Source: Rhexocercosporidium sp. MPI-PUGE-AT-0058 | Taxonomy: Eukaryota; Ascomycota; Leotiomycetes; Helotiales | NCBI GenBank assembly: GCA_020746875.1 | Contig: JAGTJL010000004.1 | Coordinates: 124,001-188,000 of the forward strand | Length of the DNA: 64,000 nt | Reading direction: 5' to 3' | In this document: positions 18,905-55,673 of the stretch, piece by piece | Layout: the number at the start of each line of letters is the position of its first letter | How positions within the stretch are numbered: the first letter of the stretch is position 1 | Notes under the pieces: model-generated | Database searches by the model: none | Seen by the model: the letters and a program-made list of their open reading frames with translations, nothing else | What the model was told of the DNA's origin: nothing | Made by a program: the position numbers and the translations under genes

Positions 18905-20531
18905 TCAGGAGTCTTTAGGGGCGTTGTACCAGAGGTTTTCTTCATTGTATCGAGAGTCGTCGAATAGAAATGAAGGGTTTGGGCCGAAATTGTGCACGAT
19001 CCATCCTCGCTCAATGCACTTCATGATCATGATATCCCGCATCGTGCCATCCTCCCGAGCACGCTTCGCAATAGGTCCCTCGTTCCCAGGATTGATTTTC
19101 TTAACATAGTTAAAGACCACGCTGTTGGCATCATTGGCTGCCTTGCTCCAATAGACTGGATGGATGCCGTTGGGTGGATTTCCTCGGGTGCTTGGGGAGT
19201 GCTCGGTTACTGACCAGGTGTAGTTGATTTGGGCTAGAGGTTCGTATGGGCCGATGCGGTTGAAGATAGAAGCCCGAGGATTTGTGCCACTTGATGCGTG
19301 TATCATCAGGGCGTTTCTTGCAGCTTTAGCAGCTATTCTCATTGCTGGAGTCCAACCTGGCAAAATCGTGGGGGGAGGTGGAATGACTCCAGCAATGGGA
19401 GCGACGGCGAACGGGGCGTGTTGGCCTGGTTGGACCAGAGGGAAAATGGGACCAGCTGCAGCAACTGGAGCAGCCTGGGTGACAGGTGCATTTGTTGTGG
19501 TGCTAGGCAGATTGCCGTTATCAGGAGCATCACCGGTATCCATCATCTCCGTATCTGAACTTGTATCCCCGCCAGTGAATGACTGACCAACGAGATCCAG
19601 ATCATCATCTTCTGTAGTGTCACCAGTATTCTCCGCAACTGTATCTGAATCTCCAAGTCTACGTTCAACACCTAATATGTTACCAGGCCTTGAGACCTGT
19701 TCCAGAAGCTCATCCTTCATTGTTGCATCAACTCCGTATGTCAAAAGCACACTCTCCAAGGTCCAATTTGGCTCTCTCAATCTTCGGCCGTCGGTTCTGA
19801 AGCCGAGCTTCCGAGCATCAGCTACGTCCAACAATCCCAAAAACATGTCCTTGAAAGCACCTCTGGGTGCTGTCTGCAACTCGGCAAGCTCGGTCTGAAA
19901 CGAGAAACGCTCTGGCAAAAGCAGTGGGCCTGTGTGATAGAAGCGTCGGCCATCTTGGTTGAAAACGTCGGAAAGATAATCCTTTCCTGCTTCGTCGAGA
20001 CCGTCCGCATGATGTCCCGAATAGTATGCATCTCGGCAGACATCGAACCACTTCTGCTCCTCAAGCGCCCATTCTGGGATGATAGGATTGATTTTGTTTC
20101 GCGGAAGATGTACGTCAATGGCTTTCTTGACGTTCTTCTTGGTCAAACCGGGGATGTGTGCCATCAATGAGGTCATTCGCTTTCGACGAGCAACCTATAA
20201 AAGTAAGTTAGCTTTTGCGTAGCTGATGTCATAGCTCGATTTGAAGGAAGGATCAACTTGCATTTCCTTTCTCCTCAATAACGGCCTTCAACTCCACACT
20301 CTTGGCCAACAAGATCTGGAATCTGGCTTTGGCTTCATCATCACCCTCCTTTTCGGGTGGTTCCAAGGTAGAACGGATGGCTATGATGAACTGATCAATG
20401 CTTTGCGCCTGAGCCTTGAGCTTTTGCACATCCCAATGGTGATATAGAGCTTGAAAGCCCTGGTATTCAAGGCCGGTGACGACTCTGAGGTCCGCATCGT
20501 ACTCGCTCAAGGTGATTTCGAATTCCGCCAT
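18905..20531 (-). CDS. Unrecognised protein, member A of the SRHGRP/SGETRD paralogue family (divergent)
   Basis: 519 residues from exons 20531-20262 and 20194-18905. The only frame-closing junction I found is a 67-bp GC-AG intron (AAT|GCAAGT..CTAAC..TATAG|GTT), phase 0. Family membership rests on shared blocks: an intron after about 90 codons as in members C and D; GRRFYHTGPLLL (about 172-183), matching GRKIYRGCVLI in D, then an ELxEL helix; and a C-terminal block GNPPNGI with GTMRDIMIMKCIERG (473-487), matching SGETRDxxIDxLIxRG. It lacks a clear SRHGRP motif (NRIGPYEPL aligns there) and has an acidic Asp/Thr/Ser-rich linker and a Pro/Ala-rich linker in the middle. There is no signal peptide or TM. 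Function unknown. It is the most diverged copy. Confidence 0.75.
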
Positions 20532-20601
20532 TGCGAAATAGTATCCGTAGTAGGAGGAGGTAAGTAGTGTAGGTAAGTTATGATGTAGAAGGAGAGTGAT
20601 T

Positions 20602-20647
20602 GAGGTCGAGGTCGAGGTCGAGGTCGAGGTCGAGGTCGAGGTCGAGG
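20602..20647. repeat. GAGGTC hexanucleotide repeat
   Basis: About 7.7 tandem copies of a 6-bp unit, 70-115 bp upstream of the start codon of the gene at 18905-20531, hence in its 5' UTR or core promoter. It is a likely site of length variation. Confidence 0.9.
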
Positions 20648-22910
20648 ACGGAGAGGAGAGGAGAGAGAGTAGAGGTAGTGTGTTGTTGAGGAAGAAAGAA
20701 GAAGGTCTATGAAAGAAAAAGTGGGGAGGTATTTGTAGACACGCCGTGTGCGAAAAGCTTCGGTCTTGGGAGAATGTGGCCTAGTGTGAATCAACAGCAG
20801 CTCTTGCCGGCGGTCGGAGATGAATGAGGTCAACCGGCGAGTCTTTTAGGGCTAGGGCAGCTCATAATGAAGTAGTCTTCCTGGCGGGGAGGAGGTTGCT
20901 TTGCCAATAGGGCCCCTGTCAGACGTAGGTTGGACAAGGAGCTTGAGGCGAGGCACTACGCAATTAAATTCATTATATAGCCTTGGAGACTTGGAGACTT
21001 GAATGGAAGCTTCGACAGGGGTAGGAGCAACGGGAGCTCCTATACAAGGGGATGCTAATGCAATTGAGCTTTCGCCTTTCTTTTCGGCCCTCACTAGGTA
21101 CATTCACAATGTACATAGAGTCTAGCAGTTCTCTTGCCATAACTTAAAGTTTGTGAGAGCTAATTTAAAACCCTGATGATGCAATTACTCTGCTTAGCGT
21201 GCTTCCACAACTCTCTTGACTTTCTCTGCCGTGCTGAAGTCTGTTAATACTCTTGTAAAAGCTTCACGGCCCATTGCGCCTACGCCTTGCTCAATGCAAG
21301 GATTTCTCCCCTTCCCAGCATACTATGCAACGATCCCACAAAGCCTTATGCATTCGACTTGTCACCGCAATATAGGATACATTTCCTGTGTCAACGCCTT
21401 TCCAGATACCTTTATGATTTGCCATTAGCCTTATGACAATGAAATGTCAGATCACCTCTAGTAAAATTCACCTACTGTCAAGGAAATTTCGAAGATTGGG
21501 TTGCATGATGACGTTCTTGATCTCGATCTTAGACTAATGCTGCGTGGATGACAAGGTAAAAAGTTGTCTCTGGTTGCACTAAACACCGTCTAGATATCTT
21601 TAATGTATACTAGCCTAATATCGATTGATGGAGAAGCACTCTGGTGCGGTGAAGCCTTCTGAAATGCGGTTGAAATGTGCATCACGTTACCAGGAACACT
21701 TCGCAGATTTGAAAGAACTGCAAATTTCCTCACCTTTTTTGGCAGCGGCATGTTCGAAGAACTACTAAAGGTAAATATTCCGAGATTATTTTGCTCAGAC
21801 CATCGTTGGAGACATAATTATGACTTGTTACGTGCTGCGATACGATGCAGAATTAATCACTTGCTCAGACGTTCAGCTCTGGTACTTGACCCCACGCCGT
21901 GAAAATTCACACGAGCGCGCCCCAACACCCACATACCGGGCATTTGCATTTGACTATTTAGAACGGCATATTTGGGTCCAGGAACTAGATTCTGTATGTA
22001 GTTGTGAAATACGTTGCGCTGTTAGACGTCAAAGAGGTTGTTTTGAATGGGCCTCTCGAAGCGGCCCAATGAGAGTGCGCCGCTTCGAAATTGCCGAAAT
22101 TGAGCCTAGAATGGGGGAAACAATGCGCGAGAGTGCTCGATGGTCAGACATTGTGGCAGACATCAGTACCTTTATGATAATGCAGCAAATTTAATGTGCG
22201 TGGTTGAATTAGTGGTGGCATTGGGGTTGGGTTGTGCTGTCGCGACCAGTCGATTTCCTCAACACCAGATGTGAGAGGCTAGATGTGGAGGGACTGCGTA
22301 TCTCTTTGTATTGGCATTTCTTAGGGTAGATCAGTATTATCAATTGATGCGCAGCTCTTGCAACTCTTGAAATGAAGTAGAAGAATGGCGCGAGCTTGTG
22401 AGGTCAATGGCGAGGCACAAAACTTACGGGAATCGGTGCGTAGTCTTTCAACAGCGAAACCTCAAAGCTGCTCTCAATGTGCCAACTCGATGGATTCCGT
22501 TTCTTCATAGCTTGCCACCGAGCTTGGGGATCTATACGCTATTGTATCTAGAGTTCCAGCTTCAGCGTGATGTTACAGGGTACCCAGTAATGCTCCAAAG
22601 GTCAACTTTCCACCCTTAGCCAACGGCTTTGCATTTTGTCTCCTAGAAAGTTCTCAATCGGACCTAAAGCTTGATTTCACAGGACTTTGGCTCGCCCTTG
22701 TTCCGAAAACTGTTTGCAGGGCTTTTGGAACGCATCCCCAAAGCTCCAGTCCTCAGCTCTGATAAGTTGCCTCAATCTGCTTCTTCGCTTCGACTTGAAA
22801 ATTGCTTCTGGTTCTGTACCTGTACCATTCCCACGCTCCGCACCTAGCCAACACCGAAGACGCCAAATCATTACAGAAAACACCTCAACGCAACGCAAAC
22901 AACCAATACA
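20648..22910. other. Intergenic; no supported gene
   Basis: Contains a 124-residue ORF (21820-22194 +) without recognised motifs, and short ORFs in several frames. Some may be remnants of a decayed gene, but I could not match them to anything. Confidence 0.4.
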
Positions 22911-24417
22911 ATGGATTCCATTGCATTGAGATGCACTACCTGCGCTTGGAACCTCTAATTCTGGAGAAAGCAGGCGGATGTGTTTGACGAAGGATCGAAA
23001 GCTGTTGAGAAATTAATGGAGGACGTAAAGCTGTCTAGGGATTTGAGTGAGGAAGAGCTTGCCGCCATTGAAAAATGGGAGGAGTTATTGGTCTGCCAGC
23101 GGGCTACGTGGAGCGAGCTATTAGAGGTATAATTCCTTCCACTTGCCAGAGAAAATTCATGGGCTCCAGACCTGAAGCTGACTTGAGAAATTCCAGAGTA
23201 CCCAAGAAGATGCAAGATATGCTAAGGCAGCCTACAAGAACTACAGACTCAGCAAAGGTCTACTACTCTTCAAACCTTCCTTTTCCATCGACGCATTCTG
23301 CGCACCTTCACGCCTCCGAATCCAAAAGTACTACGAAGTCCAAAGAGAGGCTTTGCATATCGGTTCTCCTAAAATTACAGCATCTGAGCTTCAAGCCCGG
23401 AGAGACGCCACCATTCCCGCTCAAGGCAGAAATTACTACACAGGCAGCCCGTTGATTACACCGAACCTTCTTCCAACAGCCGAAATTGCTGATTTGACGG
23501 CCGAATGGGATGGTGTTTACGGATTCCGCTCTTTGTTTCCAGAGAGATTGCTGAGATTGCTGGTATCAGAAGAGATGGACTATCATTGGATATCAAGGAG
23601 AGGGAGAAATAGTACGGAATGCCTTCTAAACAATACTTTGCAATGCGAGATGTGGAGGAAATCTTCGAATTGAGTAGGGATGCTGTGGAGAGAAGAGCTT
23701 GGGATAGACGTCTCTGGCTGGAAAACGACGATTGTGTTCTCGATACCACCCCAGAAGATGATATGAGACAAGCAGAGGGGCTCATCAACCCTCAGAACTG
23801 CTACTTCCGAGCCAATAACGATCTGCGAAATGATTGGGAATTGAAGAATGATCGAATTTGTCTCTGGGGTGCAACAATTACAGCAAAGAATGTCTTCAAA
23901 TCTTGCTGTCTTCAATATATATACTTTGCAGTAGATCATTCAAGCTCTTTTACAACACCAATCAGCAGCTCCGAATATTCTCCCAGCTCAGAACCTTCCC
24001 TCTCAACAACCCACAGTCGTCGCCCCTCCAGCTGCTCCAAATGCCCTCACAACCCAGAATTTAACCTCCCAACAACCCGCAATCGTCGCCCCTCCAGCTC
24101 CTCCAGCTCCGATTGTCTCACGCCACGGCCGACCTACACCTTACACCCCTACACAACAGCCATTCAAAATCAGTGGAGTCGGAACAAAGCACTGCCATCA
24201 CCGAGGTAATGCTCCAACCGGCGTCGACGATGCGACTTGGATCAGAGAATTTGATAATGCGGATAGCAGAGTCTATGCAAGAACCATTGGCTCCCAGGCT
24301 GTAAAGTCTCAGGCGAGATTCGATGCTAAAAACTCGGGCGAGACGAGAGATGTAGCCATTGACAAGTTGATTCGGTTGGGAATTTTGGCTGCTGGATTTA
24401 GAGACCTGAATCCTTGA
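22911..24417 (+). pseudogene. Member B of the SRHGRP/SGETRD family, inactivated
   Basis: Exon 1 runs from ATG 22911 to 23126, a 70-bp intron follows (GAG|GTATAA..CTGAC..CCAG), and exon 2 starts at 23197; intron position and phase 0 are as in members C and D. Matching blocks: RLRIQKYYEVQREAL (RLAIQKKYDTQREAL in D), GRNYYTGSPLIT, then SRHGRPTPYTPTQQP, GNAPTG, FDNADS, SGETRDVAIDKLI and GILAAGFRDLNP, ending at TGA 24415-24417. Lesions: TAA at codon 16 (22956-22958), a frame change near 23540, TAG at 23610-23612 and a second frame change near 23900. The C-terminal third is still fully open, so decay is recent or that part is constrained. Confidence 0.75.
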
Positions 24418-25129
24418 AGATGGGGGTTTTGAGGCGGCAGGGGTGACAAAGGGAGGTAGATGCTTCTTCTGTACTGAATAATGTTGTTCTCTCTTCTGTA
24501 GCACTACAAGCGAAGTTATTCGCATTACTCCATGCCTTATGAATTCCATGTAGAGCTCTAAACCTTTCCACGGAATTTACAAACCTCAGCAATAAGTTAC
24601 AGATTCAACAGATCTCCAGATCTCAAATACACTATTTCAAAGCTTAAGGGCGCTGTAAGACCAAATAACGACCTTTCACAGTATCAATCCAATACTCTCC
24701 ACCATCGAAAACCTGTTTTTTTTTCAGAACCGTTTTCAGCAGGGCCCTTCATCGCCTCCTTTACTTTCTCTTTTGCGCCGTACTGTAAACTAAGTTATCG
24801 ACATGCGCTCGAGATATGCAAATGCCCAGCCGGAGTCTAATATGATGAAAGAAAGTTCCGAAGTTGTTTAAACGCTTGTTTTAAATACTTGGGACCAGTC
24901 TATATTAATGGTGAATTGTGTTCATCAATACCAGGAAGTTGGCGGGAGGTAGGCTGCGCCCAAAACGAGGGCTAAAGAAGAGGTTCAAATTCAGAAGTAC
25001 GAGTAGAAGGATACTTGGCTGATATAACTCTACCGAGTCTTTAATAACCAATAGAGCTTCTAAAAGTTCATGACAAATCATACATAATCGAAGATCAACC
25101 AAAAATATTCACCAAGCTCGCACGACAAT
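24418..25129. other. Convergent intergenic region; nothing recognised
   Basis: Between the 3' end of the family-B pseudogene and the 3' end of the next minus-strand gene. No ORF of substance. Confidence 0.5.
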
Positions 25130-26593
25130 CTAGCATCGACAAGCAAAAGCCCTCAAGCGCAACCGGAATGTACCACAGAGGTCCCCTCCACACCACTCCA
25201 CAGACCGAGCCATTGACTCTAGAACTCAGTTAGTACACGAGAAAGAAATTAATCAGCAAGAGATATGCTGATTTCAATAACCTACGGGTAAAATCCCAAG
25301 CTGAAGTTTCAAGTCGGATCTCTGGCAAAGAACGGCCATTGGCAGCTTCGAGATCCCGTTTGCTCGCTTGATTGCTTTCGAATACCATGTTGTGTTGCGA
25401 TATGTTGTACCGGACTTCTGTGTTTGCTGAATTGGTAGTGTCGCGAGTAGAGACTGGAGGCATGGATGAAGCTCTAGGGATAACTGTCGGAGCAGTCCCA
25501 GAAAGCGAAGATCGTGGGTGGCGTGGATGTCTGGCGCTTGGAGAAACGAACTTCGGAGTCGCAGGACAGAGGACTTTGGTGATTTCAGCGATAGAATTTG
25601 CATCTGTAGCGGAAATGTGGACCGCTTCAGGCGTCACCGGAGGAGAAGGTATAGTCAGTCTTCCCACATGACCTCGTGGTGATTGCACCCATGATGGGTC
25701 TAAACTCGGCGCCGTTACGTAAGTTTGAGTTGATTCTTTATCTTTGGGATTGAGACTATGCATTTCTATAGACTGATCGTCGTCTTCTGCGGTTGGTCTT
25801 GATTCGAAAGGGAGAGTAGTGGGAAGTACAGGTGTCGCAGCTGGTGTGACGACTGGTATATCTGTTGCTGTGGAGGTAGTTGTACTGGTTCCGGCCACCG
25901 TCATCTCGTGAGAGTTGTTTGTAAAAGATGCTTGGTCCGTACAAAACCAAGACGTACTCGTCCAGGCTAGAAGAACACTTTCCGTCGATTGTTGACCAAT
26001 GGTATTTGATTGAGGCGTGTAATCTGTACGAGCTCCGAGCCCAACCCAAACTTTGAGTATACTTAAAGAATGGTCCGTCATCTGGAGATATTTGGCTGTG
26101 TTATGAGGCTTTCCAGGATCAACTCGGGGCCATACACCAAACACACTGGCGCTATCAAGGGTGAAGTCAAGATGGTAGACGTGCGGGACATGGAACAGCG
26201 AGGGCGACCGCTTATCTTCTTCGTCGACATGCCAATCTAACTTTTTCCATATACCTCTTCCATACGGTACTTTGTTCTTTGACTTCACAGACGACATCTG
26301 TAAGTTTATTAGTATACCAAAAGTAGGTTGTCTAATTTTGAATGGATGTACAGTACCTGGACGAATGAAATTCGAACGATGTGGTCTTTAAGATGTTCCA
26401 CTTGAACGACAGCTACTGGGTGGCCCCATCCAAGGTTCGCTAGCTTACAATCGTTTTTGCACTCCTCTTTCTCCTCACTCCACTTGCAGGTAAGAGTCTC
26501 ATTTCTCCCGGTCATGCTTTGATACATGTTGAAGGGGGGGATGGCTACTATCCAGCCTTCCCTTATATGTTTTGTCGGCACTGGTTTATGCAT
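25130..26593 (-). CDS. Hypothetical protein with disordered Ser/Thr/Pro-rich region
   Basis: Preferred model: exons 26593-26357, 26297-25286 and 25218-25130, giving 445 residues. Intron 1 is 59 bp (CAG|GTACTG..ACTAATAA..ACAG). Intron 2 is 67 bp (GTAGGT..GTACTAACTGAGTTCTAG, a near-ideal branch site and acceptor). If intron 2 is retained, the protein instead ends at 25230 with a hydrophobic tail (LLKSAYLLLINFFLVY). The N-terminal 160 residues look folded (GWIVAIPPFNM; GWGHPVAVVQVEH; VYHLDFTL). Residues of about 160-400 are Ser/Thr/Pro-rich and probably disordered. No signal peptide and no known domain recognised. Confidence 0.65.
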
Positions 26594-27839
26594 TTGAGTG
26601 TAAAATTAGGAGGAATAGAAGTAATATTGAATGATATGAATTGGGACAATATCGAAAAGTGAGTAAGAAGATAGTTTGAAAAGAACGAAGAATCTGCCAG
26701 AGACTTAAATTGAGTTGCTACCGATTGACCTTCGCGCCCTCCATACTACCATTATATATACTTCAACCTCCTCCGAGACCATTTTGAAGTGCGATGAGCA
26801 CGTTGTGCACCAACAACATTATTCATTGTCCTGGGTTAGCTGGAGCCACTTGCCATACATTCGTGGCGGCGACCTTCCAGACTATTTCTGAGTGTAAGTC
26901 TCGTACCCAGGGTGCTCAAGTCATTGAGGGCAGTTGCTTAGAGCCGAATAACATCCTTCTGCTGGCCAGTGCGGGAAACTCCTTCGAAGACAGATCAACG
27001 CAGAAGGGTTCCGTTGGAGACATTATTTCTTTGTCACTCGACTTGTCGATTTAGCTGCCGAAGCTTAGCTTACAGAAGCAAAAAAGCCGGGACTCAGACC
27101 GAGACTAGGACAATGGCCGTCATAATGTCTTGTCTCATACATTCACATGAGACTTTCTCGAATCTCAAAATGCGGCCTAGTCTTTCTAATTTTTCGTTGA
27201 TTCAAGCTTCGTTTGAGATTAGTCTACACTAAAGGGATCTTTTTGCTCGCCTCTACTCGGTCGGTACTAATGTTCAGTATCGGAGGTAGCTAATTCGCTT
27301 CAAAGGAGCCATCTGAACTGACACATTTCGATGAACAACAAGCTGGGGGCGGCGAAGTACAGATTCTCAAATGGCATGGAAATCAATACCGCTATACCGC
27401 GAGACATAAATGGAGAATAGAATCACGAGACCAAAGACGATCAGATTCCCGGTTGAAGAGGGTATATTTTCTACTTTTCTACCTATCGTCCTCCCAAAAA
27501 GGAAGAGGATACACACCCACCCATGCATCCATTCATCATCCCAGAGCCCGAATATTGCTAAAGCCTCGAGAATATCATTGAAAATTTGTACGCCATTGTA
27601 GATGTCCGGTTGATGGATCATCACTTCCCGATGCTGTTGAACAACCACACACGCCCCCATAAAATGTCTCGCAAAAAGGGAGAAAAAAGAAAAGAAGCTT
27701 TTGTCTTTAATGCCCTGCCAGAAACGCCGATGTTGAGATCGTCTCCACTGCTAGGCCTCAAAAACCAACTACAAATTTCGTGATATCATCGCTCATACCC
27801 CCAATACACAAAAGGAAAAAGTTTGAGAGAAGATATGCT
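26594..27839. other. Intergenic; no gene recognised
   Basis: Promoter side of the preceding hypothetical gene and 3' UTR side of MET6. Short ORFs only. Confidence 0.45.
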
Positions 27840-30261
27840 CTACTTAGCATACTTCTGGCGGTAGAACTTGGCGGCGTTGACCATGTTGGTCAAGGCGGCC
27901 TTTGTCTCCGACCATTGGCGGGTCTTAAGACCACAGTCAGGATCGATCCAGAGTTGCTCTGGCTTGAGGTATTGCAACATCTCCTCGATACGGTCCTTGA
28001 TTTCCTGTTCGCTTGGAACACGAGGAGAGTGGATGTCGTAGACACCTGGACCGATGTGGCGAGGGTAAGCCTCATCGACGAAGACCTTGAGGAGCTTGGC
28101 ATCAGACTTGCTGTTCTCGATGGAGAGGACATCGGCATCGAGAGCGGCGATGGCGTGGAAGAAGTCTTGGAACTCGGAGTAGCAGAAATGGGAATGGATC
28201 TGGGTGGAGTCTTGGACACCAGAGACGGAGAGACGGAAAGACTTGACGGCCCAGTCGAGGTAGGCCTCGCGCTCCTTTCCGGCACGAAGAGGAAGACCCT
28301 CACGAAGAGCGGGCTCATCGACTTGAATGACGAAGACACCAGCGGCCTCAAGATCAACAACTTCGTCACGGAGAGCAAGAGCAAGTTGCTCAGCCTGGAC
28401 GGACTGGTGGACATCATCACGAGGGAAAGACCATCGTAGACAGGTGATTGGACCAGTCAACATGCCCTTCATTGGCTTCTTGGAGATGGAAACGGCGTAC
28501 TTGGACTCCTTAACGGTCATCGGTGCTGGGCGAGAGATGTCACCAACAACGATAGGTGGGCGAACGCAGCGGGATCCGTAGGATTGAACCCAGGCGTGGG
28601 TGGTGAAGGCATAACCATCAAGGCGCTCACCGAAGTACTGCACCATGTCATTACGCTCAGGCTCACCGTGAACGTAGACATCGAGGTCAAGCTCCTCTTG
28701 GATCTTGACGACATCTTGAATCTCCTTCTCGATGAACTTCTCGTACTCCTCAGCGGTGATCTCGCCCTTGGTAAACTTGTTACGTTGGATACGGATCTCC
28801 TTGGTCTGGGGGAAGGAACCGATGGTGGTGGTTGGGAAGAGAGGAAGAGCCAATGACTTTTGTTGAGCAGCAATACGGGCAGGGAACTCGGAAAGTCTGT
28901 TGTACATCTCCTTGGTGATCTTGGATTGACGGTCCTTGACTTTGGGGTCGTTGGTGCGGGTGGATGAAGCACGGGATTGCATGGACTTGGCGTTAGCCTC
29001 GAGTTGCTCACGGACAGCAGCTGGGCCCTCAGTGACGGCCTTGGCAATAACGGCGACCTCAGAAGCCTTCTCAACAGCAAAGGAGAACCAGTCAGCGATC
29101 TCGGGGTCGAGCTTCTTCTCACTGGCGAGAGTGTGTGGGGTGTGGAGAAGGGAACTGGAAGTGGCAACAATGACACGCTCCTTTCCGACCTTCTGGATGG
29201 CAGTCTCAACGGTCTCGATAGCACGCTTGAGGTTGGTCTTCCAGATGTTTCGGCCATCAACAACTCCGGCGGAGAGGATGGTCTTTGGGCCAAGAGCAGA
29301 GATGACGGTGCTCAATTGCTCTGGGTTTCGGACCAAGTCAACGTGAACAGCGTAGATGTCAGTTGGGACTAAGTCGATGTTGTGGACGATGTCACCGAAG
29401 TAGGTGGCGAAGACAAGGTTTGGGATTTTGTCACCGAGAGCAGCGAGCTTCTCATATGTTGGCTTGAAAGCAGCCTTGGTCTTGGCTGGGAGATCTTGGA
29501 CGAGGGTTGGCTCATCGATTTGGACAGTCTCAGCACCAGCAGCCTTCAATTTGGTGAGGATCTCCTCATAGACTGGGAGAAGTTTCTCGAGAAGGTCGAT
29601 AGGGTCGACGGTTTGGTCACGGTCGGCCTTTCCGAGTTGGAGGAAAGAGACTGGGCCAACAAGGACTGGGCGGGTGATGATACCAGCCTCTTTGGCCTCA
29701 AGGAACTCAGCAACAGCCTTTGGGTTGGCGGTGAGCTTGAATTCCTGGTTGTCTTGGAGGGTTGGCTTGACATAGTGGTAGTTCGAGTCGAACCACTTCA
29801 CCATCTCCAAACTGGGAACATCGACACCCTCACGCTGAAGACCACGACCCATAGCAAAGTATTCATCGACGGGGTCGAGCTTGTATTTGGTATATCTGGG
29901 AGGGACGGCCTATACAGAAATAAAGTTAGCTTCTTGCTTCAAGTATTCCTAGGGAGAAAACCTACACCAAAGTCCTGGATCTGGTGGAGAACTTGATCGT
30001 AGAGAGCGAAGTCATTGCTGGGAATGATATCGACGCCAGCATCTTTCTGGATCTTCCAGTGTGCAAGACGGAGTCTCTTGGCCTCAGCGAGGAGATCAGC
30101 TTGAGAGAGCTTGCCGCCCCAGTAAGCCTCAGTTGCCTTCTTCAAGTCACGGAGAGCTCCCATGCGGGGGAAACCGAGGATGGATCTATTGCAGAAAATC
30201 GAGTGAGCATGCTGCAAATAGATATGAGGTCTGCAAAGGCGAAGACTTACGATTGAACCAT
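27840..30261 (-). CDS. MET6: Cobalamin-independent methionine synthase
   Basis: Transfers the methyl group of 5-methyltetrahydropteroyl-triglutamate to homocysteine, making methionine in the cytosol. Exons 30261-30251 (an 11-bp first coding exon, ATGGTTCAATC), 30185-29966 and 29909-27840, with introns of 65 and 56 bp, give 766 residues, the usual fungal length. The start MVQSSILGFPRMG matches the family start. Zinc and homocysteine ligands are visible in IHSHFCYSEF (His, Cys) and DPDCGLKTR (Cys), and the C-terminal catalytic domain is complete. Codon use is strongly biased (few rare codons), as expected for an abundant enzyme. It is divergent from the arsenite methyltransferase at 31.3 kb. 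Confidence 0.97.
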
Positions 30262-30820
30262 GTTGGCGGTTGTGAAGAGTCGTAGTGTAGAACGGAAAAG
30301 TGCTGCAGACTCGGATCAACACGATCGATCGATTACGTGGTCGAAGTCTGCTTCTCCGGTATTCGGAAGAAGAGGGGTAATGGAATGGAGTTGATTCTAC
30401 TGCCACGAGAAGAAGCAAAGAAGTGTAGATGTCAAGGTGTCCCTCTGAAGTGATTCTGGGGGAACGGATGGATATGAGGAGGGGAAGGAGGAGTGTTGAG
30501 GGAAGAGAAGGAGAGCGGTGTGAGGGAGGGTTGATAAAGTAGAAATTTCGAATGGAGGGGTTGGCGTGGGTGCGAGTGAGGGGCGTGAAATGGCGTTGGC
30601 GCTAGAGCTGGTGGGGGTTAGTGCCCGATCACGTGGGCACTGAATAAACTTTGCTTCCGACTTCGATTTGCAACGCGTTGGCAGGTTGCGAGTAGTGTGA
30701 GATGTTGTGGTATCTAGTATGTGCCTAAAAGATTTCTTCCTTCTATTCAAACGTCATCTTTACGAGATGTAGACGTGAAGCATCTAAGAGAGTGCTATGC
30801 TATAATAGCCGATTCACCTC

Positions 30821-30862
30821 CTGTATGCTCGGGGACTTGTAAGCAAGTCCCCGAGCATGCAG
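30821..30862. repeat. Near-perfect hairpin in the MET6/arsM intergenic region
   Basis: Two 19-base arms (30821-30839 and 30844-30862) flank a 4-base TAAG loop. The inner 15 pairs are perfect (ATGCTCGGGGACTTG against its complement), and the outer four contain one G-T style mismatch. It lies about 560 bp upstream of the MET6 start and 490 bp upstream of the methyltransferase start. It could be a structured UTR element, a tiny inverted-repeat insertion or a palindromic regulatory site; sequence alone does not decide. Confidence 0.85.
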
Positions 30863-31348
30863 CTGCGTCCCCATGCCGGAAAGCTGCTGGTTGGTGGGGT
30901 GCCAGACCAGTTTATTATTTTGGTCTGTGCCATCACTCAAATTTACTTCGTTATTGAATAGCTTTGCTGTCCTTCATAGGTAGGTAGGCGTAGAGGAAGC
31001 AATTCAATGCACATTGAGTTGTCCAGGTACATTTTGACCGTCTGGTGGGAATTGTGCAACTCCCAAGAGGCAGCCAAGCCTGCTCGCCAAATCGACCAAT
31101 CAACAGCACAAGTTACTGGTGACAGACCGCAGTGACAGACCACCATCAACCAAACAACATCTCAAGGCTTCATAAAGACCACCTCTACCTCTTCCTTTTT
31201 CTCAACTTCTCTCACATTCACCTTCCATAAAGAACCCATCGACTTCTCCTCACTCATATTCTTCCCCGTCCTTCAATCATTCTACCTAGTACACCACCCC
31301 TCACTCACCTCCAAGAAACACCCAATAGCCTCCCTCAACTTAACCAAA

Positions 31349-32372
31349 ATGTCCACCCCCACCCCCACCGCCAAAGCAGTGCACGCCCACTACTCCTCCC
31401 TCGCCCTCGAAGACCCCTCCAAAAACACCCAACACGCTCTCAAAGTCGCATCATCATTCGGCTACACTCCTGAAGACCTCGCCTCCGTCCCAGAAGGATC
31501 CAACCTCGGCGTAAGCTGCGGGAACCCCTTCGCCATAGCCGGTATCAAGCCCGGAGAAACAGTAATCGATCTCGGATGCGGAGGAGGCTTCGATGTCTTC
31601 CAAGCCGCTCACAAAGTCGGCCCTACAGGTCTCGCCATCGGTGTTGATTCAAGTGAGGACATGCTTGCGCTATCTCGGAAGAATGCCGCAAATTCCAAGA
31701 TTGAGAATGTGAAATTTGTGTTTGCGGATATCACGGATATTCCCTTAGAGGACGGGAGTGCGGATTGTGTTATTAGTAATTGCGTTATTAATCTGCTTGA
31801 GGAAAGGAGGAAGAAGGTGTGTTTTGGGGAGTGTTTTCGGCTGTTGAGGGAGGGGGGGAGGGTGGCGGTTAGTGATATTCTGGCGAAGAAGGTGTTTACG
31901 GAGGAGTTGAAGAGGGATATTGGACTTTATGTGGGGTGTGTTAGTGGTGCTAGTTTGGTGGGGGACTATGAGGCGTGGTTGAGGGAAGTGGGATTTGGAG
32001 GTATGCTCTTCCTTAACTAGGAATGGATCAATAAGCTTTGGGCTGATTGTTTTTGGGCAGATATCCTCATCGTGGACAAGAAGTCCGATCTCAACATCTA
32101 CAAGGAGCGTAGCTCATCGAACGAAAGCGGCGCCACTGAGTCGAAAAGTTTAGAGTCCTCATGCTGTGCTCCGGCAACTTCATGCTGTAGACCTGAAGCC
32201 AGTGGAGACAGCAAGGTGGATTCGGAGAATACGATGGCAAAGAGAGTGGCGGACATCGACTTCAATGAGTGGGTCAGTGAGTATTGCCATACTCTCATGA
32301 AATTGGAAGTACATGCTGATTGTTTGAACAGGCTCATACAGCATCTATGCCGTCAAGCCCAAGAAGCAATAA
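31349..32372 (+). CDS. Arsenite S-adenosylmethionine methyltransferase
   Basis: Class I SAM methyltransferase of the ArsM/AS3MT family, which methylates arsenite for detoxification. Exons 31349-32000, 32061-32276 and 32332-32372; introns of 60 and 55 bp; 302 residues with exact frame closure. Motif I is VIDLGCGGGFDVFQAA. The conserved cysteine contexts of the family are present: SNLGVSCGNP, DCVISNCVINL and YVGCVSGA. A Cys-rich stretch follows (SSCCAPATSCC), typical of the C-terminal arsenic-binding tail. The first 300 bases are strikingly C-rich in wobble positions. It shares an upstream region with MET6, which supplies methionine for SAM. Related 5-nucleophile methyltransferases cannot be fully excluded, but the cysteine set fits arsenite. 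Confidence 0.9.
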
Positions 32373-32635
32373 ACCGGAAGTTTTCATTCTCGAATCAGTT
32401 GAGCATGGGTTAGTCAATCAAATCAAGTCACAGCTGCAGGCATCATCACTCTTTCTTTCCTTGTCTCTCAAGTAATTCAAAATGCTTTTATTGTATGTCC
32501 ATTGCCAATCCATTTTCCAGGTCTCAATTCCAAGAAATCTTTCCTTTTTCAAACCTCCCGAAGAAAAACAAACCCCCTAAAAGCCAATATCCAAATCTTC
32601 ATCTTCATTTCCCAAATCCGCCCAAGCTTCCACGC

Positions 32636-34002
32636 TCAAGGATTCGTATCCTGGAATCCCTGCGGTAAATCCCCCCTCGCGATCAACTTATCGATCGTCA
32701 AGTCCCTAGTTTCCCCACTCTCCCGATACCTCTTCCGCTTATCCCCATTATCCTTCCCAACACCAGAGTCTGCCGTGTTGTACAATTTATCGTACACGAA
32801 CACATTGACATTACCCGGTGTATTCCCGCGGACGGCGTTCCACTTGGTGGGGGTATTTCCAAGTTTCAGGGTTGGCTGGCGGGTTGGTCGGTAGGGCTGG
32901 GGACGGCCGTGCCGGGAGAACAGCGCGTTGGGTGCTGGAGGCGCGGCGGCGGGAGGAGCTGCAGGAGGAGGAGGAGGTGGCGGAGCTTGCCCACCAAAAG
33001 GACCGAAGGGATGTTGGTATGCTGGAGCTGGAGCTGCGGTAGGAGCGCGAGCAGAAGGTGTACCGCGAGCTGGAGCAGCTGGAGGAGGTTGTGGTGGACG
33101 CATGCCCTGCTGGCCTCGCGCAGGAACAGGTGTAGAAGCTGACATCGCAGCACTGTTCTCGATGCGCTCATAGCCCATCGAAGCAAAGTACGCGCCCCAG
33201 AGGTCTTCCTCGTCGGTATCACCACTTAGGTCGGTGCCGGCATGCTTAGCCACGATTGCAGGGACCCAATTCCGCAACTCATTGACGACGTCGCCTGCAG
33301 CTTGCAGCGCGTCAATCTCATTCTGCACCGAGACCGCAGGTGTCATCAGTGGGCAGCCTCTATAAAGCACCCGACCGTTTCCATTCCCAGTGCGAAGGTT
33401 CACGATGTCCTGTTGGGAGAGGACAGTCTCCGGATTCGTCATAATGAGCACCTCTCGCTCAACATCGAATCGCTTCTGGATTGCGAGTCTCTCCTCACTC
33501 TCTAGAGGATGGATCACGAAGATCGGCGCGTCATAGACACCCAAGCCCAATGCCTCGCGGTACTTCTTGTACTCTGCGAGACGTTCGACTTCCATCCCCT
33601 CCAGCATCTACCCAGATAAAAGTCAGTAAACATTTCATCAAGCGCAGATGTCTTCCACAATGATTTCAAGATGTGGCAACACCAACACGAGCAAGAACAT
33701 ACCTTGACCTCAACGCGATCCTCCCATCTTTTCATCGCGGGCTTGATCTGAGTTAGCCATGCTTTCAAGGCTGCGGCCTCATTTGCGGGCAGAGCTGGCG
33801 CGTTGCTATTGTTGGCGAACTCTTTCAGCTTCCGTTCAATGTATTCAACGCGGAGCTTGAACACGACAGCGTTTTGTTCGGCGCGCGCCTTGTCCCAGAG
33901 GCATTGGAGGTAGGCTCGGGCAGCGTCGATAGAGCGCGTGGTGCGCGCGATGGTGGCGGCAACGCTGCGGCTGTTGCGGGAGGTGGACGGGCGGTAAGAC
34001 AT
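32636..34002 (-). CDS. Unrecognised protein, member C of the SRHGRP/SGETRD family
   Basis: 423 residues from exons 34002-33703 and 33607-32636, with a 95-bp intron (AAG|GTATGT..TACTGAC..GGTAG|ATG), phase 0. The N-terminal 100 residues are helical and Ala/Arg-rich (YLQCLWDKARAEQNAVVFKL). The middle has SEERLAIQKRFDVEREVLIM and GRVLYRGCPLMT followed by an ELxxL helix. A long Pro/Ala/Gly-rich linker (about 255-325) precedes SRHGRPQPYRPTRQPT (from 331), YNTADS and SGETRDLTIDKLI (from 397), and the end is GDLPQGFQDTNP. No signal peptide or TM, so probably intracellular. It is convergent with the methyltransferase (about 260 bp between stops). Intact, so a good reference copy. Function unknown. Confidence 0.85.
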
Positions 34003-35882
34003 TGTGGTGGTGTCTGTTGGTAGGTCGGTGTTGATTGGTGTAGGTGGAGAAGGTGTAAAGAGTATGAGGACTTGTGAAAGAAATAAAGAGGAAGATGATG
34101 TTGCTGGTCCTGGTGTTTATGAAAGAGGTTCTTGGTGGCGGTGTTTGAAGATCGAAGGTATTATTGCGTCGAGTTAGTTTCAAGATGTGGTTGTCTGGAA
34201 GATTTCGAAGGACGACGAAGAGAACGAGGAGGTGGTTTTTATATCCTCGTTCTCGAGAGGAGAATGACGCTAGCTTCGAGGAAAGACGCTAGCTATTTGA
34301 AACATTCCTATCTATTAGCTAACAAAGAAAAGATCAATATGACTTGAAGCGAGCGTGAACAGGTCGGTGAATGGAAATACGCAGGGGTCTATCTGCTTCC
34401 ATGGCCAGATGTGAGTGGGTATGCCTAAAGAGCTATTGTGTGTATGTATCAAATTAAGAGAGTTGGAACCCGGCCTCATTGGCCTGGTGGTAGGCTTTTG
34501 CGTTCTAGCTTCATAGTTATTTCTCCAGACTAGCTAGCCTCGATTCGGCTTCGGAAAAAAGTGTTCGCTATTGGATTTAGATAATATAATCACAGAACAG
34601 GATAAGGCATAAATTCATGCGCCTTTAGTCGTCGTCAGTATATACAAGTAGCCGTGCTGCAGAAGGAGAACTGATTCCCATGCACTACCTCAAAGTCTAT
34701 TCAAGTGGGCAGATCTGTCACTTTATATCCTCATAGACAATCAATAACCTGTGTCAGACAGGTTTTACGTAGACCTCATGCGCAAAGCCAAACAGATGGC
34801 ACAAACTACAGCAAACAATTAGCGTGAGGCAGATGCCCATCGTTGTTTTCCTGCGTTTGACATTTAAGCGAGGGGATTGTGTTTACTCTTGAACTCGCTT
34901 CGCGATATAACCCCTCAATTCCACCGTCACACAGCAACCTAACCCCCCTCTATCTAACACAAAACTGACAACATTGTTTACCTGAGCACCTCCAAAACCT
35001 GGTTAGTGAATCGGGTGATCAATCGTCTATTGGGCCCATGATGTGAAAGCAATAACGTAGATGCCAAGCATGATTGTGCTTTACCTCGTGATATCTACTG
35101 CACTTTACACTTAAGATAATCAATCTGGTCCTACATGTGACAAGCTTTATCTCCCAAATGACAGTGCCATCTGAAGCAATCATTTGCTTTTGCGTGAATA
35201 CTATAGACTAGTTAGCGATTATCATCAGTAGTTTGCACCTGTTTGCCGTACAAGCATTGCTATCCATATGAGAAGTAGAAGGTCATGTCTTTCTACGTTG
35301 GTACTGATATGATTATTGTTCTGTTATATTATTATGTCTAGAGATATATATGATGTATAAAGTATATGGAAGATTTGTAATTACAAAATGTCTTTCACAG
35401 CATTGTCTCGTCTCTCTCTATTCATGGCTTCTACAAATTTCCCGGAAACCGAAATTGGATCCGAGTCAAGAATCAATGTAATATCTCATACATTCTTCCA
35501 GACACTCAATCAATGAGTGCGTTAAGTAACGCTAGCAGAACCATAGAGTTTATCGGAGAATTGAATTGCGCTAGCAGCCAGATTCACCCAACTGGATGGC
35601 CGTCCTAACAGTTGAATCGCCGTACAAGTCGAACTCCAAGAAAATTTGTATGCTGGCTCGAGTCTAGCGTTGTTTCTGCACTTCAACAGCCATACTTACG
35701 CACCCCTGCGAAGTACACTTTCAACGACGATAATCTTTCTACTCTTTGATTTCTATACTACTTCGTACACAACAAAACGGGAACGATCAAGATCTCCCCA
35801 GCTAACTAAAACGCCTTGGCTGATTTACCTCAACACAAACAATAAATAAAGAACAGTAAATTCAACACCGTCCCTCGCAGCA
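34003..35882. other. Divergent intergenic region between family members C and D
   Basis: About 1.9 kb separating the head-to-head copies C and D. It contains no ORF with support and no repeat that I could pair; AT-rich around 35.2-35.5 kb. It probably carries both promoters. Confidence 0.5.
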
Positions 35883-37069
35883 ATGTCCAACCTCCCTGAG
35901 TCAACACCCCTCGCAGCAGCTCTCAAGTATCTCGAGTTCTCTTGGGACCAAGCTCTTTGGAGCCAAGAGTCTATTGTCTACAAAGTAATCGGCGAGCAGG
36001 CACTAGGTCTGATTGAGGACGTCGAGTTGAGCGAACACAACGGCTTTAGCCACGAGCAAATCAGCGACATCCAGGCATGGAAAACCAATATCGGACACCT
36101 GATTGAGAGCTATGGGAGCGAGTACCTCAACAAGGTATGTTGCCTTTTAGAAATTCTATTACACGTAGAGGATATTGGCTAATTCGGACTTCAAAGATGC
36201 GCCGCGACGCTGAAGAAGAGCTCTTCATCAAATACGCCAACTCCATGCTGTCCAAAGGCCTCCTCATCTACGCCAAGCCAACATTCCTCATCAACTGCAC
36301 CGAATCAGTTGAGCGCCTCGCAATCCAAAAGAAGTATGACACCCAGCGCGAAGCTCTCCTGATGACCAACGACGAAGGTAAGATATCATTCTCTGATGTT
36401 GAAGCACTCCGCGTCGCCGATGGACGCAAGATTTACAGAGGATGTGTACTCATCGACAACCATCTTTCGATTGATGCTGAGCTTCGAGAGTTGAGTGATG
36501 CGGGAGATGCCGTATTGCAGAGAAAGACATGTCTCCCTGATGCTGTCGGCGAGTTGGTGGGCCTGTCACCTGCTGGTGTGCCGTTTGGTAGGGAGGATTC
36601 TTGGGAGTGGGATGAATACTTTTTGACCTTGGGATACAAGAGAGCCGAGGACCTCGCTCAAGAGCCAGAGACAGAGCCAGTACCAGTTTCCCAACAGCAG
36701 CTGCAACAAGAATACCCTCTGCAATATCCTCAACAACCAAATGCCCCACCTCCTGCTCCAGCCAACTCTCTCCTTCTATCCCGCCACGGCCGACCAAACC
36801 CCTACCAACCAACTCCCCAGCCAACTCTCAAGAGCAAAGAAGCCGTGAACAGCAAGTACGGCAAGACGAAGGGGAAGCCTCCTGGAGGAGTTGATTACTT
36901 CGAGTATGATTTGGCGTACAACAGGGCTGATTCTAAGGGTCGGCATATGGGCAAGACTTTGGAGGTGAGGGAGGCGGATAGGTATAGTGGTGAGACGAGA
37001 GATGCGGCTATTGATGATCTGATTAAGAGGGGTTTGTTACCAGCTGGATTTCAAGATCTGGATCCTTGA
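35883..37069 (+). CDS. Unrecognised protein, member D of the SRHGRP/SGETRD family
   Basis: 374 residues from exons 35883-36134 and 36197-37069, with a 62-bp intron (AAG|GTATGT..CTAAT..AAAG|ATG), phase 0, at the same place as in member C. Blocks: LKYLEFSWDQALWSQESIVY (N-terminal helices), SVERLAIQKKYDTQREALLM, GRKIYRGCVLID with SIDAELREL, WDEYFLTLGYKRAED, a Gln/Pro-rich linker, SRHGRPNPYQPTPQPT (from 279), YNRADS, SGETRDAAIDDLI (from 348) and GLLPAGFQDLDP. No signal peptide or TM. Intact. It lies head to head with C, suggesting an inverted duplication followed by divergence. Confidence 0.85.
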
Positions 37070-37954
37070 TTGAGGATTTTCGGGTGCTTTGGAGGGATGC
37101 ATGGATTTGTATTTCTGGCGCAATTAGAGACTCCCTTGGATTCTGGATGAGGAATACTTTTGGAGACACCCTATTTGCTAGACCAAATCAAAATGAACTA
37201 TTGCGCAGCTTGTGCTTCTTTCTCTCATTCGCATGTATTTGATCAATCTTTAGAGTGGATTTGTCTTTTGGTCATGTTGCATTGGAGGAAACAGATAGGG
37301 GTAATATCTCATCAGCTGCAGGAACCTTCCCTCGGGAATATCCACCCAAATCGTGAGTATCTATTACCGCCACTGTAATGCGCTCAAGCTACTGCTAGTA
37401 ATTGGCGACATAGCGAAGGATGGGACCAGGAAGCTTGCTGAACTACTTTGCTTGGCGAGAAGAGCTTGACCGGGAAGGAGAGGCAGCATACTCTAATCAA
37501 GTGAGCAGCTGGCCATAATTTCAAGTTTTACCCTAAAGGCACCATTCAGCAGCTTCTTCGTTCTCTTTCGGCCGTTCAGACCTTAGACTTGAAGGCAGAC
37601 TTAAACTTGAAGTTGCATTGTTCTCCGGACGATTCTTTCATTGATTGAGCCCGCGATTATCGAATTTGCATAGATAATGCTGAACAGTTCAGAACGAAAA
37701 ACTAACCCAGCTGCGCATTACTACCATCTATTGAACAAAAATTGTAGCAGTAGATAATTGACTGCAAATAATACCCAAGGATATTGTTGAGAGTTTGAAA
37801 GCTGTGGCGGGATAAGCGATGTTGACTCGGGCAAGTGGCGGTTCCTTGATGTGCAGATGTCTGCGTTCATCTAAGAACAACGCGTCTCCCTCAATTCAAC
37901 GCGACTTCTGACCATTCAGCCCCAACAGTTCCCCTTACAAGACCTCGAGCCACC
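37070..37954. other. Intergenic; nothing recognised
   Basis: 3' flank of member D and 5' flank of the broken gene at 37.95 kb. No supported ORF or repeat. Confidence 0.45.
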
Positions 37955-38687
37955 ATGGTATCCTCCTCGAAGCGCAAATTCGATGCGTTCAAATTAACTG
38001 GGGATGCATCCAAACCCACCGGAGCTGAATTCAAGATCAAGGCAATCCGTACAGTCCACGCGCTGGACATCGCTGTCCTCGCGAGATAACTATATATGTC
38101 ATAGGTCCTTACTCGCGAAAGGTCGAGACATATCCGGCTCTTCTAACATCCAAATCCTCCAGTATATCACGAAACTCAAGATAGCTGAACACATCGACTC
38201 GAAATACGCCGTGAACGCAGCAACCAAACCCCCCACGCCGCCCAAGAACTTCGACGTCTATTCAAAAGAGTGCTGGTATGCATTAAACACCCAATCCAAG
38301 CGTCTGAAACCCAGCAAACAATTCTAAGCCACCAGAAAAGTACTGGAAGTGCTGGAGAGCAAAAGGAAGACGATTATCAAAGAAGCAGGTGCGGATAAAG
38401 TATGGCAGACGCGTAGGAACGCATTGGAAGTGCTGAGGAAGATATGCAATAGTATCGTGCTTTGTGATGTCCAGGTTATTCGGCATGAGCTCATGAAGGA
38501 TGGGGTCGTGCTGGGTGAGTTTATGGGGACGATGTGTCAGAATGGGAGGGTTTTTTCGGATGTCGAGAAGGGAAAGTATGATGATGAGGGGTTTTTGGAG
38601 AAGATTGAAAAGTTGAAGGAGGCTTGTGATGATTGGGAGGTGAGTATGCCGGATTTGGAGGACCTGCTGGGGATATTTGGGCGGTGA
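37955..38687 (+). pseudogene. Broken hypothetical gene
   Basis: An ATG in good context (CACCATGG) at 37955 starts MVSSSKRKFDAFKLTGD, which runs into TAA after 44 codons. A second frame then reads continuously from about 38105 to TGA 38685-38687 except for one TAA at 38325-38327. It encodes a charged, helical protein (YITKLKIAEHIDSKYAVNA; KVWQTRRNALEVLRKICNSI; EKIEKLKEACDDWEVSMP). An acceptor-like CATAG sits at 38100-38104, but no donor gives frame closure. Read as a recently inactivated gene. No known domain and none of the family A-D motifs. Confidence 0.5.
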
Positions 38688-39845
38688 GGGTTTATTGGAG
38701 GAAATAAACGAACATTCCAAGTGAACAGAGTTTTCGATTTGAAGGGCCAGCCAGCTAACCCGAGGAACAGGCGGAAAACAGCCATGAACATGGAAGGCCC
38801 CATGTAAATCCCATATTTCTCTTGCATATCTTACATCAAATCAGAAGCTGATTAACCTTGGCCCAGCACCGCAGTGTATTCTAAGGTAGACAACAGATTG
38901 ACATGGAGTGTTAGCTTTGGAATCATCTATCGACAAGGTTACACGTTGGCAAAGCTCGCCTAATTCCATTTCATCTCCGCTCGTTAAGTTACAGGATCTT
39001 TACGGAGTATTGCGTGGGCTCTTTCTTTATCTTTCGAGGAGCTTCGTCGTATTTTTAAGCCCGAGAAGATATTTCATGGGAATATGGCCTCTCGTAAGTC
39101 TACAGACCATGAGGTTTATTTTGCTGTGGAATCTGCAGTCAATGAATTGAATCGTAATGGAGGACGGGTCGAGTGAGACATGATGACTTCAAAATAATGG
39201 CAACTGACATCTGGCTTCTAGAACGTATCTAGCCACGATTGAGAATGTCTCACCCACGTGCCTACTTGAACTCGTCGCTTCAATACCTTCTCTTTGAACA
39301 ATGTCCTAATGAGACAGCTGGGGCTGACTCAGTCCCTTTGACGAGGAACATCGACTAGCCAAAGAAGATTCAATTACCGAAGCAAAATTGAGCGGTACGG
39401 CTTGATTATTGGCTCAGTTCACAATGGTTTCTTCGAGACACGTCGGGCGTGCTACTTTCTGTATACTAAAGAAGTCAGCGGGTCTACAAGACAACGCCTG
39501 GGTTTAAAAATACAATACAACCATAGTTTACTGCTGAAGCCTGTTTTTTCATCACTGCATAGCCTCTACCCAACTGAAAAATGGGTTAAGGTTAACGCCC
39601 AAGCAACTTCTCTCTTAACCTCATCATTTAGCGTGCTGAGACTGTTGACAGGTACAGTACATTGATATCGGGGGGCTTTCAATCGGATCCCGAAAGCAGC
39701 AAGCCGCTCATCTATGGCGAAGAGGAGATCCAATGCCACGACTGCTGCGGAAGTTACAGCTTCACCGTCAATAGCTGAACTATAAAACCCTCTGCTAGGG
39801 CTATGATACACGGTCTACTTTAGTACTTCGTCAATGCTGCTGTAA
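38688..39845. other. Intergenic; nothing recognised
   Basis: No ORF with support on either strand. Confidence 0.45.
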
Positions 39846-40106
39846 CGAGCCTACCGCCCAAAGTCCGTGTTTTTAGCGACCTTTTCAGGCTTCGATACAA
39901 ACAAGTCATCGAATTCATTATAATACTATTTGACATCCACAAACTAATCAGTCTTCAAACTAATACTAATCGTGAATATTTGGCTTAAGTTGAGTATGCT
40001 ATAATTGATTTCTTGATTTATAAATAATTAAATCCCGCTTCAATTTCTTCAGGCTTGATTTGTTAGCGAGATGCCCTAAAAACACGGACTTTGGGCGGTA
40101 GGCTCG
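39846..40106. mobile_element. MITE-like 261-bp element with 31-bp terminal inverted repeats
   Basis: The arms 39846-39876 and 40076-40106 are exact inverted copies over 31 bases (CGAGCCTACCGCC.. at the left, its complement at the right). Each side is flanked by TAA (39843-39845 and 40107-40109), so the target duplication is TA or TAA. The interior is AT-rich with no ORF, as expected for a non-autonomous DNA transposon. Confidence 0.88.
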
Positions 40107-40511
40107 TAAGACTCGTGCCAAATTCGGGCTTGGGAATTCACTTATATGCCTGGCCTTTGCGGACCCGTGCAGCAACTGTAATTTCGACATTATATCGCAT
40201 AGGATTCTCTATAACGTCTTTTTCCAGTGAAGTTCGGGGTTGAGTCCTTGAGGAACGCTTTTTGTTGACACCAGATGTGCTTGGATAGCTCTTAGGGGAC
40301 GGGTGGCGACAGGAAAGATTTGTTGGTTTTTGAGGCGATTTGGCCCTAGAATTTTTGGAATGTTACATGAAGAGACGAAGCATATCGTGCTAGACCGTAG
40401 TAGCATGTTTGGTGTTTGTCTCATCTGACAAAGTCAATTTAACCCCCAGAACTTGTTTTCTTGGCCCTGATCAATATTATACAGAGAACTATGCCACAGG
40501 ATCTCAAATTA

Positions 40512-42238: not shown

Positions 42239-42627
42239 TTTTGTTGTTGGGTTGGGATGAATATGGAAGGATGTGATGTCCTGATGTGACATGGAGGAAT
42301 TGATGATGTGAGGTTGGGTGTGTCGTTAACAATTGCCGAGGTTTAGATTTGACGAACACGTGAGCCGAAGCGAGTAAACAGAACAAACAGCAGCAATCAG
42401 AGATTCGACGACAACGTACAGTCTAGATATTCAAAGATTTGTTTGGCGATTTGAGCAATTCTGTAGAAGCTTCAAATACCCCGATCCGACTATCCCATAC
42501 AGATACTAAGATGACTGCTCTTATTCCAACGATGAACAAGACAAGAATACGACAAAAGTCCGAAGCTAAAACCTAGTGATCCAGGTAGAAGAGAGTTGCA
42601 ATAATTCATTCGGGACATTTTTATCAT

Positions 42628-43695
42628 GTGTTAGTCACATCCCGCCTTTCAATCTTCCCGCTTTCAGACCCAGCCTTGTCCTACACCCAACTTCATCGAG
42701 CAACCATACAACCTCCAAAAGACACTTTGTTTTTTTCATTCGATGACGGCAAAGACCGATACGGCGAAACTCTACACCAGGCGCAAGGCGATCTTCTCCA
42801 TGCCCCAAAAGACATGTACGAAAGGATCCCAGTATCCTCCTTATTTACCCACAGCCTAAGCATATCCTCCCTACAAGCATCGATACAGAGCGGCTGTCAC
42901 TTGTGTGATCTTCTCTGGAATGCCCATAGGAAATACTTCACGGTCGCTGCTCAGCTCGAGGAAGAACAGCCGACAGCTCCTGTAGCTGAGTTGCACTACA
43001 GAATAGAGGCAGAGCGCCTATTTCAAATCGAGTTGGGAACGGCGGATACCATCGTCTTGTTCCTTATCATGGAACATCCACGGTCTGTTAGTACAGATAT
43101 GTCTAGCCTAAAGTCGAAATATCGAGGTAGGATCTATGCAAGGGCTCGGAACGTGGATGGGTTGCCACAAGAAAATACTGCATTTTCTGTTGACTGCTTC
43201 ATGACTCCAGAGTCCTTTTTCCAGCATGAACTCTTGTCTGGTGAAATTGAAGTACCATTAATCCTGCCTGTGGGTATAGCTTGGAGTCCATATGAACAGG
43301 CTCTGCTGTGGCTGTCGAGATGTTTGAACACACACTCTGATTGCGTCACAGGGGCTTCATCTGCAGCGAAACGAAACCCCTCGCGGCTCCTGGACATTAG
43401 TACCTCATCACAGGACGTTAGGCTTTGTCGTCCAGATCCCACCCCGTTTCTTAAATACGGCGCTCTCAGTCATCGATGGGAAGCGGACGACCAACTCAGG
43501 CTCCTTAGTACGACCATCGATTCATTTTTGGACAGTATACCAATGAGCCTGTTATCCGGTACGTTCCAGGAGGCGATAGCTGCTCGTCGGGAATTAAATA
43601 TTAGATACATATGGATCGACTCACTGTGCATTTTGCAAGATTCCAAGGATGGCTTGGCTCAAGAATCATCACGAATGGGCGAAGTTTACCAGTAA
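42628..43695 (+). pseudogene. Truncated HET-domain gene
   Basis: An open frame of 355 codons. It has the usual pre-HET region (VSSLFTHSLSISSLQAS, SGCHLCDLLW) and the first half of a HET domain: YGALSHRWEADDQLRLL, then IRYIWIDSLCILQDSKDG and ESSRMGEVYQ. It ends at TAA 43693-43695, exactly where the domain should continue (usually M..IY.nA). The rest of the domain and the C-terminal region are absent, and the sequence passes into repeat-like DNA, so the gene is truncated. The frame opens at 42628 without an ATG; the first in-frame ATG is 42814, and an upstream exon is possible. HET proteins trigger vegetative incompatibility. Confidence 0.75.
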
Positions 43696-55650: not shown

Positions 55651-55673
55651 ATTATTCGTGTTCTCTACTTTAA

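Follow-up and report, generated by a model that had tools for sequence, protein, structure and literature searches.

A clustered, lineage-restricted gene family of four copies in a Rhexocercosporidium genome

In a 64-kb stretch of the 62.7-Mb genome of Rhexocercosporidium sp. MPI-PUGE-AT-0058 (assembly GCA_020746875.1, contig JAGTJL010000004.1, positions 124,001 to 188,000; hereafter the window), four related gene copies, which we call A to D, lie within an 18-kb cluster (Table 1). Judged from their sequences, the four are one family, of which A is a far member. The family is real and, by the searches made here, undescribed and restricted to its lineage: profiles run twice against about 5.8 billion proteins returned the same five each time, all from three Helotiales fungi. 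A preliminary description of the window had proposed a family without a named domain, and this holds, as Pfam, Protein Data Bank (PDB) sequence, and fold searches gave no significant match.

Kinship and gene models of the four copies

C and D share 40% identity and align over their full length, and B, C, and D have in common the place of the intron, a middle block, and a C-terminal block of ~95 residues. The placement of A needs more care. Compared pair by pair, A matches D (E 3e-5) and C (E 5e-9) only weakly, the match to C lying partly in the low-complexity linker, and the preliminary description had named as refuting its reading an alignment in which the copies share nothing beyond such linkers. 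A profile built from the other members with the linker removed, searched against 1,296 open reading frames (ORFs) of the window plus A, finds exon 2 of A at E 2.7e-4 (16.8 bits) in the N block and 1.1e-7 (28.8 bits) in the C block. Unrelated window ORFs score no better than E 7 and 7.9, and among 2,000 shuffles of A the top scores are E 2.6 and 1.4 (4.4 and 6.5 bits). A thus scores far above both and is a distant member whose kinship extends beyond the linkers.

The coordinates, strands, and two-exon plan of the preliminary description hold up. In the spliced models, A (519 aa), C (423 aa), and D (374 aa) each have a single, terminal stop. In-frame codon scores for A, C, and D are 0.234, 0.238, and 0.279, similar to the 0.167-0.648 of the metabolic and protease genes of the window, which are also the genes that trained the score; the other two forward frames are negative and reverse frames are at most 0.136. 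The intron is in phase 0 in all four copies. The further claim that it stands at the same place is exact for C and D, which share an alignment column, while B is two columns off and A 12, the latter measured where the exon 1 alignment is unreliable. Block order is common to all four. If a member is defined by a middle and a C-terminal block in that order and by a phase-0 intron that follows exon 1, C and D belong fully, B in pieces, and A as a far member.

The signature motifs had been attributed to all four copies. Exact SRHGRP and SGETRD are indeed present in B, C, and D (with GFQD in C and D, GFRD in B), but not in A, which retains scattered identities (NRIGPYEP, RGNPP, NDANS, DGTMRDIMI..CIERG). 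The C-terminal motifs are parts of the single conserved block of ~95 residues. The preliminary description took the short SRHGRP and SGETRD blocks for a possible binding motif; the C-terminal region behaves as a single block.

Copy B is the one pseudogene, as had been proposed, with an in-frame TAA in exon 1 and frame changes in exon 2, where stops set the frame of the C-terminal block apart from the preceding stretch. It still has recognisable splice sites and the C-terminal block, and its exon 1 stretch past the TAA matches the family profile at E 2.6e-11, in a profile that includes B's own pieces. In-frame codon scores of the B pieces are -0.021, 0.142, and 0.095. Repeat-induced point mutation (RIP) was considered as the cause of its death and rejected because the TpA/ApT ratio of B (0.58) resembles that of A, C, and D (0.45-0.63). 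RIP-like DNA does occur outside the gene family, with TpA/ApT above 1.0 at 44001-46000 (1.37) and 56001-62000 (1.03, 1.47, 1.11).

Table 1. Coordinates of the four copies and their parts, numbered from the first base of the window
Feature	Coordinates	Strand	Description
Copy A	18905-20531	-	two exons, intact-looking
A exon 1	20262..20531	-	90 codons; weakly alignable
A intron	20195-20261	-	phase 0, GC-AG, donor GCAAGT; inferred from frame
A exon 2	18905..20194	-	429 codons + stop; a middle block, then a long and variable linker, then the diverged C-terminal block
Copy B	22911-24417	+	pseudogene
B exon 1 remains	22911..23126	+	~72 codons; in-frame TAA at 22956-22958
B intron	23127-23196	+	70 bp, GT-AG
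B exon 2 start (middle block)	23197..23560	+	E 1.6e-9 to D
B C-terminal block	24118..24417	+	SRHGRP, NADS, SGETRD, GFRDLNP; E 3.6e-17 to D
Copy C	32636-34002	-	two exons, intact-looking
C exon 1	33703..34002	-	100 codons; first 25 residues basic, 0 acidic, amphipathic
C intron	33608-33702	-	95 bp
C exon 2	32636..33607	-	323 codons + stop
C-D divergent intergenic region	34003..35882		1.9 kb; arrangement from sequence
Copy D	35883-37069	+	two exons, intact-looking
D exon 1	35883..36134	+	84 codons; identical to residues 1-84 of deposited P0002
D intron	36135-36196	+	62 bp
D exon 2	36197..37069	+	290 codons + stop; ends SGETRD...GFQDLDP

The region between C and D is possibly a shared promoter region, by inference from its divergent layout. 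About 70 bp upstream of the start codon of A lies a pure 6-bp tandem repeat (GAGGTC, 7.7 copies, 20602-20647). A 385-codon open frame within the cluster (25230-26387, minus strand) has no Pfam match and a negative codon score in all six frames, and is probably in part non-coding or spliced. Neither a tRNA nor an Rfam match at the gathering score was found in the window. The outer 2 kb of the near contig end, 124 kb from the start of the window, lacks the TTAGGG repeat found at the far end, so a subtelomeric position of the cluster is not supported.

Distribution, annotation, and age

Searches of the strain's own genome found the family in the cluster only. With D as query there were six matches, A not among them; with A there were three, which beyond A itself included only the C-terminal block of B, at E 0.14. 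Because the D query missed A, copies as diverged as A could escape such a search. The protein profile searches, proposed as a check in the preliminary description, gave five of 7,998 scored proteins at E up to 0.01 and five of 7,993 at E up to 1, none with a named domain. A hit in these searches requires words of five residues in common, and more distant relatives may therefore have escaped.

The five proteins are C and D of this strain and three unnamed, uncharacterised proteins with the family blocks in the same order. The hypothetical proteins ACEPPN_009130 (Leptodophora sp.) and IFR05_012240 (Cadophora sp. M221) are D orthologues with 69% and 61% identity to D. The C orthologue IFR05_012239 (P0005; Cadophora sp. 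M221) is identical to C at 96 of 148 middle-block residues and, unlike C, is deposited as a partial protein without the C-terminal block. By their consecutive locus tags, the two Cadophora genes are neighbours. Exact SRHGRP is missing from the D orthologue P0003 and exact SGETRD from the D orthologue P0004, so neither motif is invariant. Both profile searches gave no orthologue of A or B in any organism.

Public gene models differ in part from ours. Our spliced C is identical to P0001 (BKA65DRAFT_579305), and D is identical to P0002 (BKA65DRAFT_579307) over its first 346 residues. The deposited P0002 omits the conserved last 28 residues of D, and its own last 167 come from 37252-37353 and 38091-38684; over 36983-38687 (plus strand) it joins D to downstream stretches that resemble a separate gene. 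The end of D as modelled here is matched by the ends of P0003 and P0004. As a protein query, A alone had no match at E up to 0.1 among 7,996 candidates scored, so the protein collection apparently does not include it in its modelled form, though a model of very different length would escape. Public annotation thus appears to lack copy A and to end D in the wrong place. Literature searches by locus tags and strain name returned no paper, and among the papers listed by searches on topic and genus none had a title or opening abstract lines that concerned this locus.

The preliminary description read the mixture of copies as rapid birth-and-death evolution, which is now less supported. In an unrooted tree without A, C and its Cadophora orthologue separate from the rest (support 100/99), as do the three D proteins (96/99). 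B is a long branch between the two groups and is not placed; groupings of B with D or with C are uninformative since both are drawn as branch sides in an unrooted tree. When A is included, the end branches of A (7.67) and B (1.74) leave neither placeable. Because Cadophora has separate C and D orthologues, the split between C and D is older than the divergence of Rhexocercosporidium and Cadophora. Pairs drawn from A, B, C, and D (12 comparisons, six per block) differ by 0.60-0.89 per synonymous site and by 0.34-0.55 per non-synonymous site, exact ratios meaning little because synonymous sites are near or beyond saturation. Protein sequence is nonetheless kept better than silent sites, B included, so that selection probably constrained B too until late in its history. 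These values speak for old copies, slow change, and one later death. Altogether, these sequence comparisons fit old, slow divergence with one pseudogene, B alone being clearly dead. Another scenario weighed was that one head-to-head pair had been duplicated as a block (A-B and C-D). Between the two divergent intergenic regions, words of 10-11 bp are all that is shared.

That lack of shared sequence counts against a remnant or domesticated mobile element, which we regard as highly improbable. Several copies with one dead are what such an element might leave, and the window does hold a transposase-like fragment (52842-53441, plus strand) whose match to the winged helix-turn-helix family HTH_33 (E 3.3e-4) falls below the cut-off and which we take to resemble a Tc1/mariner transposase remnant. 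However, the D and A queries found no copy outside the 18-kb cluster (distant, A-like copies could escape), and in scans of viral and prokaryotic contigs none of the 103 and 88 stretches that fitted the pattern was confirmed as a relative. The shared spliced intron and the long divergence with protein kept better than silent sites likewise disfavour it. Elsewhere in the window, two pairs of inverted repeats resemble the termini of small DNA transposons: 39845-39876 / 40076-40107 (32 bp, 100%) bounds ~0.26 kb and 55673-55707 / 56942-56976 (35 bp, 97%) bounds ~1.3 kb. A 126-bp tandem repeat (58605-59654, 8.3 copies, 87% matches) includes a plus-strand frame (59086-59583, 165 aa) in which a ~42-residue unit is repeated.

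Possible functions of the family proteins

None of the six members exceeds a curated Pfam-A cut-off (best E 0.023). A profile search of PDB sequences gave three chance-level matches (E 1.5-2.1) and no kin. As a tentative model, mostly inferred and given a probability of roughly 0.3, the proteins would work inside the cell as adaptors, with C and D acting as a pair. Each protein would be soluble. Its N-terminal third would form an antiparallel helical bundle for self- or cross-association, as a dimer or oligomer. The Pro/Gln/Ala-rich linker would serve as a flexible spacer, and the C-terminal block of ~95 residues, which on this proposal has a basic start (SRHGRP) and a helical end (SGETRDxxIDxLIxxGxLPxGF), would bind a conserved partner. 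As head-to-head genes that have stayed neighbours, C and D would most likely form a pair that shares one partner. A would have diverged to another role and B been lost. The retention of C and D as neighbours in a second genus, Cadophora, is consistent with such a pair.

Several points weigh against this model. The head-to-head layout of C and D could be due to chance, and the Cadophora pair is known as neighbours from locus tags, not from orientation. Leptodophora gave a D orthologue only, with no C orthologue in either profile search, and the two motifs are each altered in one D orthologue. Structure models are of low confidence (mean predicted local distance difference test, pLDDT, 55.8 and 50.0; predicted template modelling score, pTM, 0.42 and 0.41), and most of the C-terminal block in the C model is below pLDDT 50. 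As for the basic start of the block, SRHGRP contains GRP, the core of the AT-hook DNA-binding motif; Pfam gave no AT-hook match at E up to 1, a scan that very short motifs can escape.

An intracellular location agrees with the preliminary description, which found no signal peptide. The multi-block proteins look soluble: in a crude hydropathy scan, the sole method used here, the N-termini of A, C, and D had no hydrophobic core, and there was no signal-peptide-like or transmembrane stretch in six proteins (maximum 19-residue mean hydropathy 0.94-1.32). This result counts against host-facing effectors of a root endophyte, which would have to be delivered without a classical signal peptide. That the genes are lineage-restricted, clustered, and proline-rich would suit effectors, as would the strain's habitat as a plant-root fungus. 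Cysteines are few, though (two, two, and three in A, C, and D), and these are large multi-block proteins kept across genera, so we consider effectors quite unlikely.

The N-termini raise the prospect of a compartment split, with a mitochondrial presequence on C and cytosolic D and A. The first 25 residues of C carry a charge of +5, lack acidic residues, and peak at a helical moment of 0.63; the values are -2 and 0.29 for D and -5 and 0.34 for A. The signal is weaker in the Cadophora C orthologue (+2, one acidic residue, 0.47), and the C model carries the N-terminal region on as one long helix from residue 9. We consider a mitochondrial C unlikely.

Comparison with known systems

Fungal genomes commonly contain orphan families duplicated locally, few of which have been characterised; this family is an ordinary kind of thing for such a genome. 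It does lend itself to study, with three genes that look intact, one pseudogene, orthologues from two other genera, and a well-conserved C-terminal block to test. The nearest fold comparisons are generic helical-bundle modules (Smac/DIABLO, PI3K p85 iSH2, F-BAR), from searches without a significant match.

Two HET domains (PF06985) are encoded in the window, at 42589-43695 (plus strand, E 8.8e-15) and 51729-52439 (minus strand, E 3e-20); the latter runs across several overlapping frames, so that this gene is spliced or broken. Their presence, together with paralogues that have variable linkers and one pseudogene, raises allorecognition, in which the family and the neighbouring HET-domain genes would trigger or restrain cell death after hyphal fusion. 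A two-gene precedent is het-B of Podospora, reported as an allorecognition locus involving two different genes (PMC10890737). HET genes are so many in this genome, however, that proximity is weak evidence: a first look at the 62.7 Mb gave 526 candidates, of which 150 places were scored (neither HET gene of the window is among these), and random placement predicts 0.15-0.54 HET genes per 64 kb, with at least two in about 1-10% of windows. C and D are also old, with single orthologues and no sign of turnover. We judge allorecognition unlikely, and the bolder proposal of a new C-terminal interaction domain confined to one group of Helotiales root fungi, with C and D as a two-component intracellular recognition system tied to HET death genes, very doubtful. 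Set beside fungal heterokaryon-incompatibility loci, the family differs in that its proteins contain neither HET (six of six members without a match at E up to 1) nor any other Pfam domain; the likeness lies in the HET-domain genes 5.5 and 14.7 kb beyond D.
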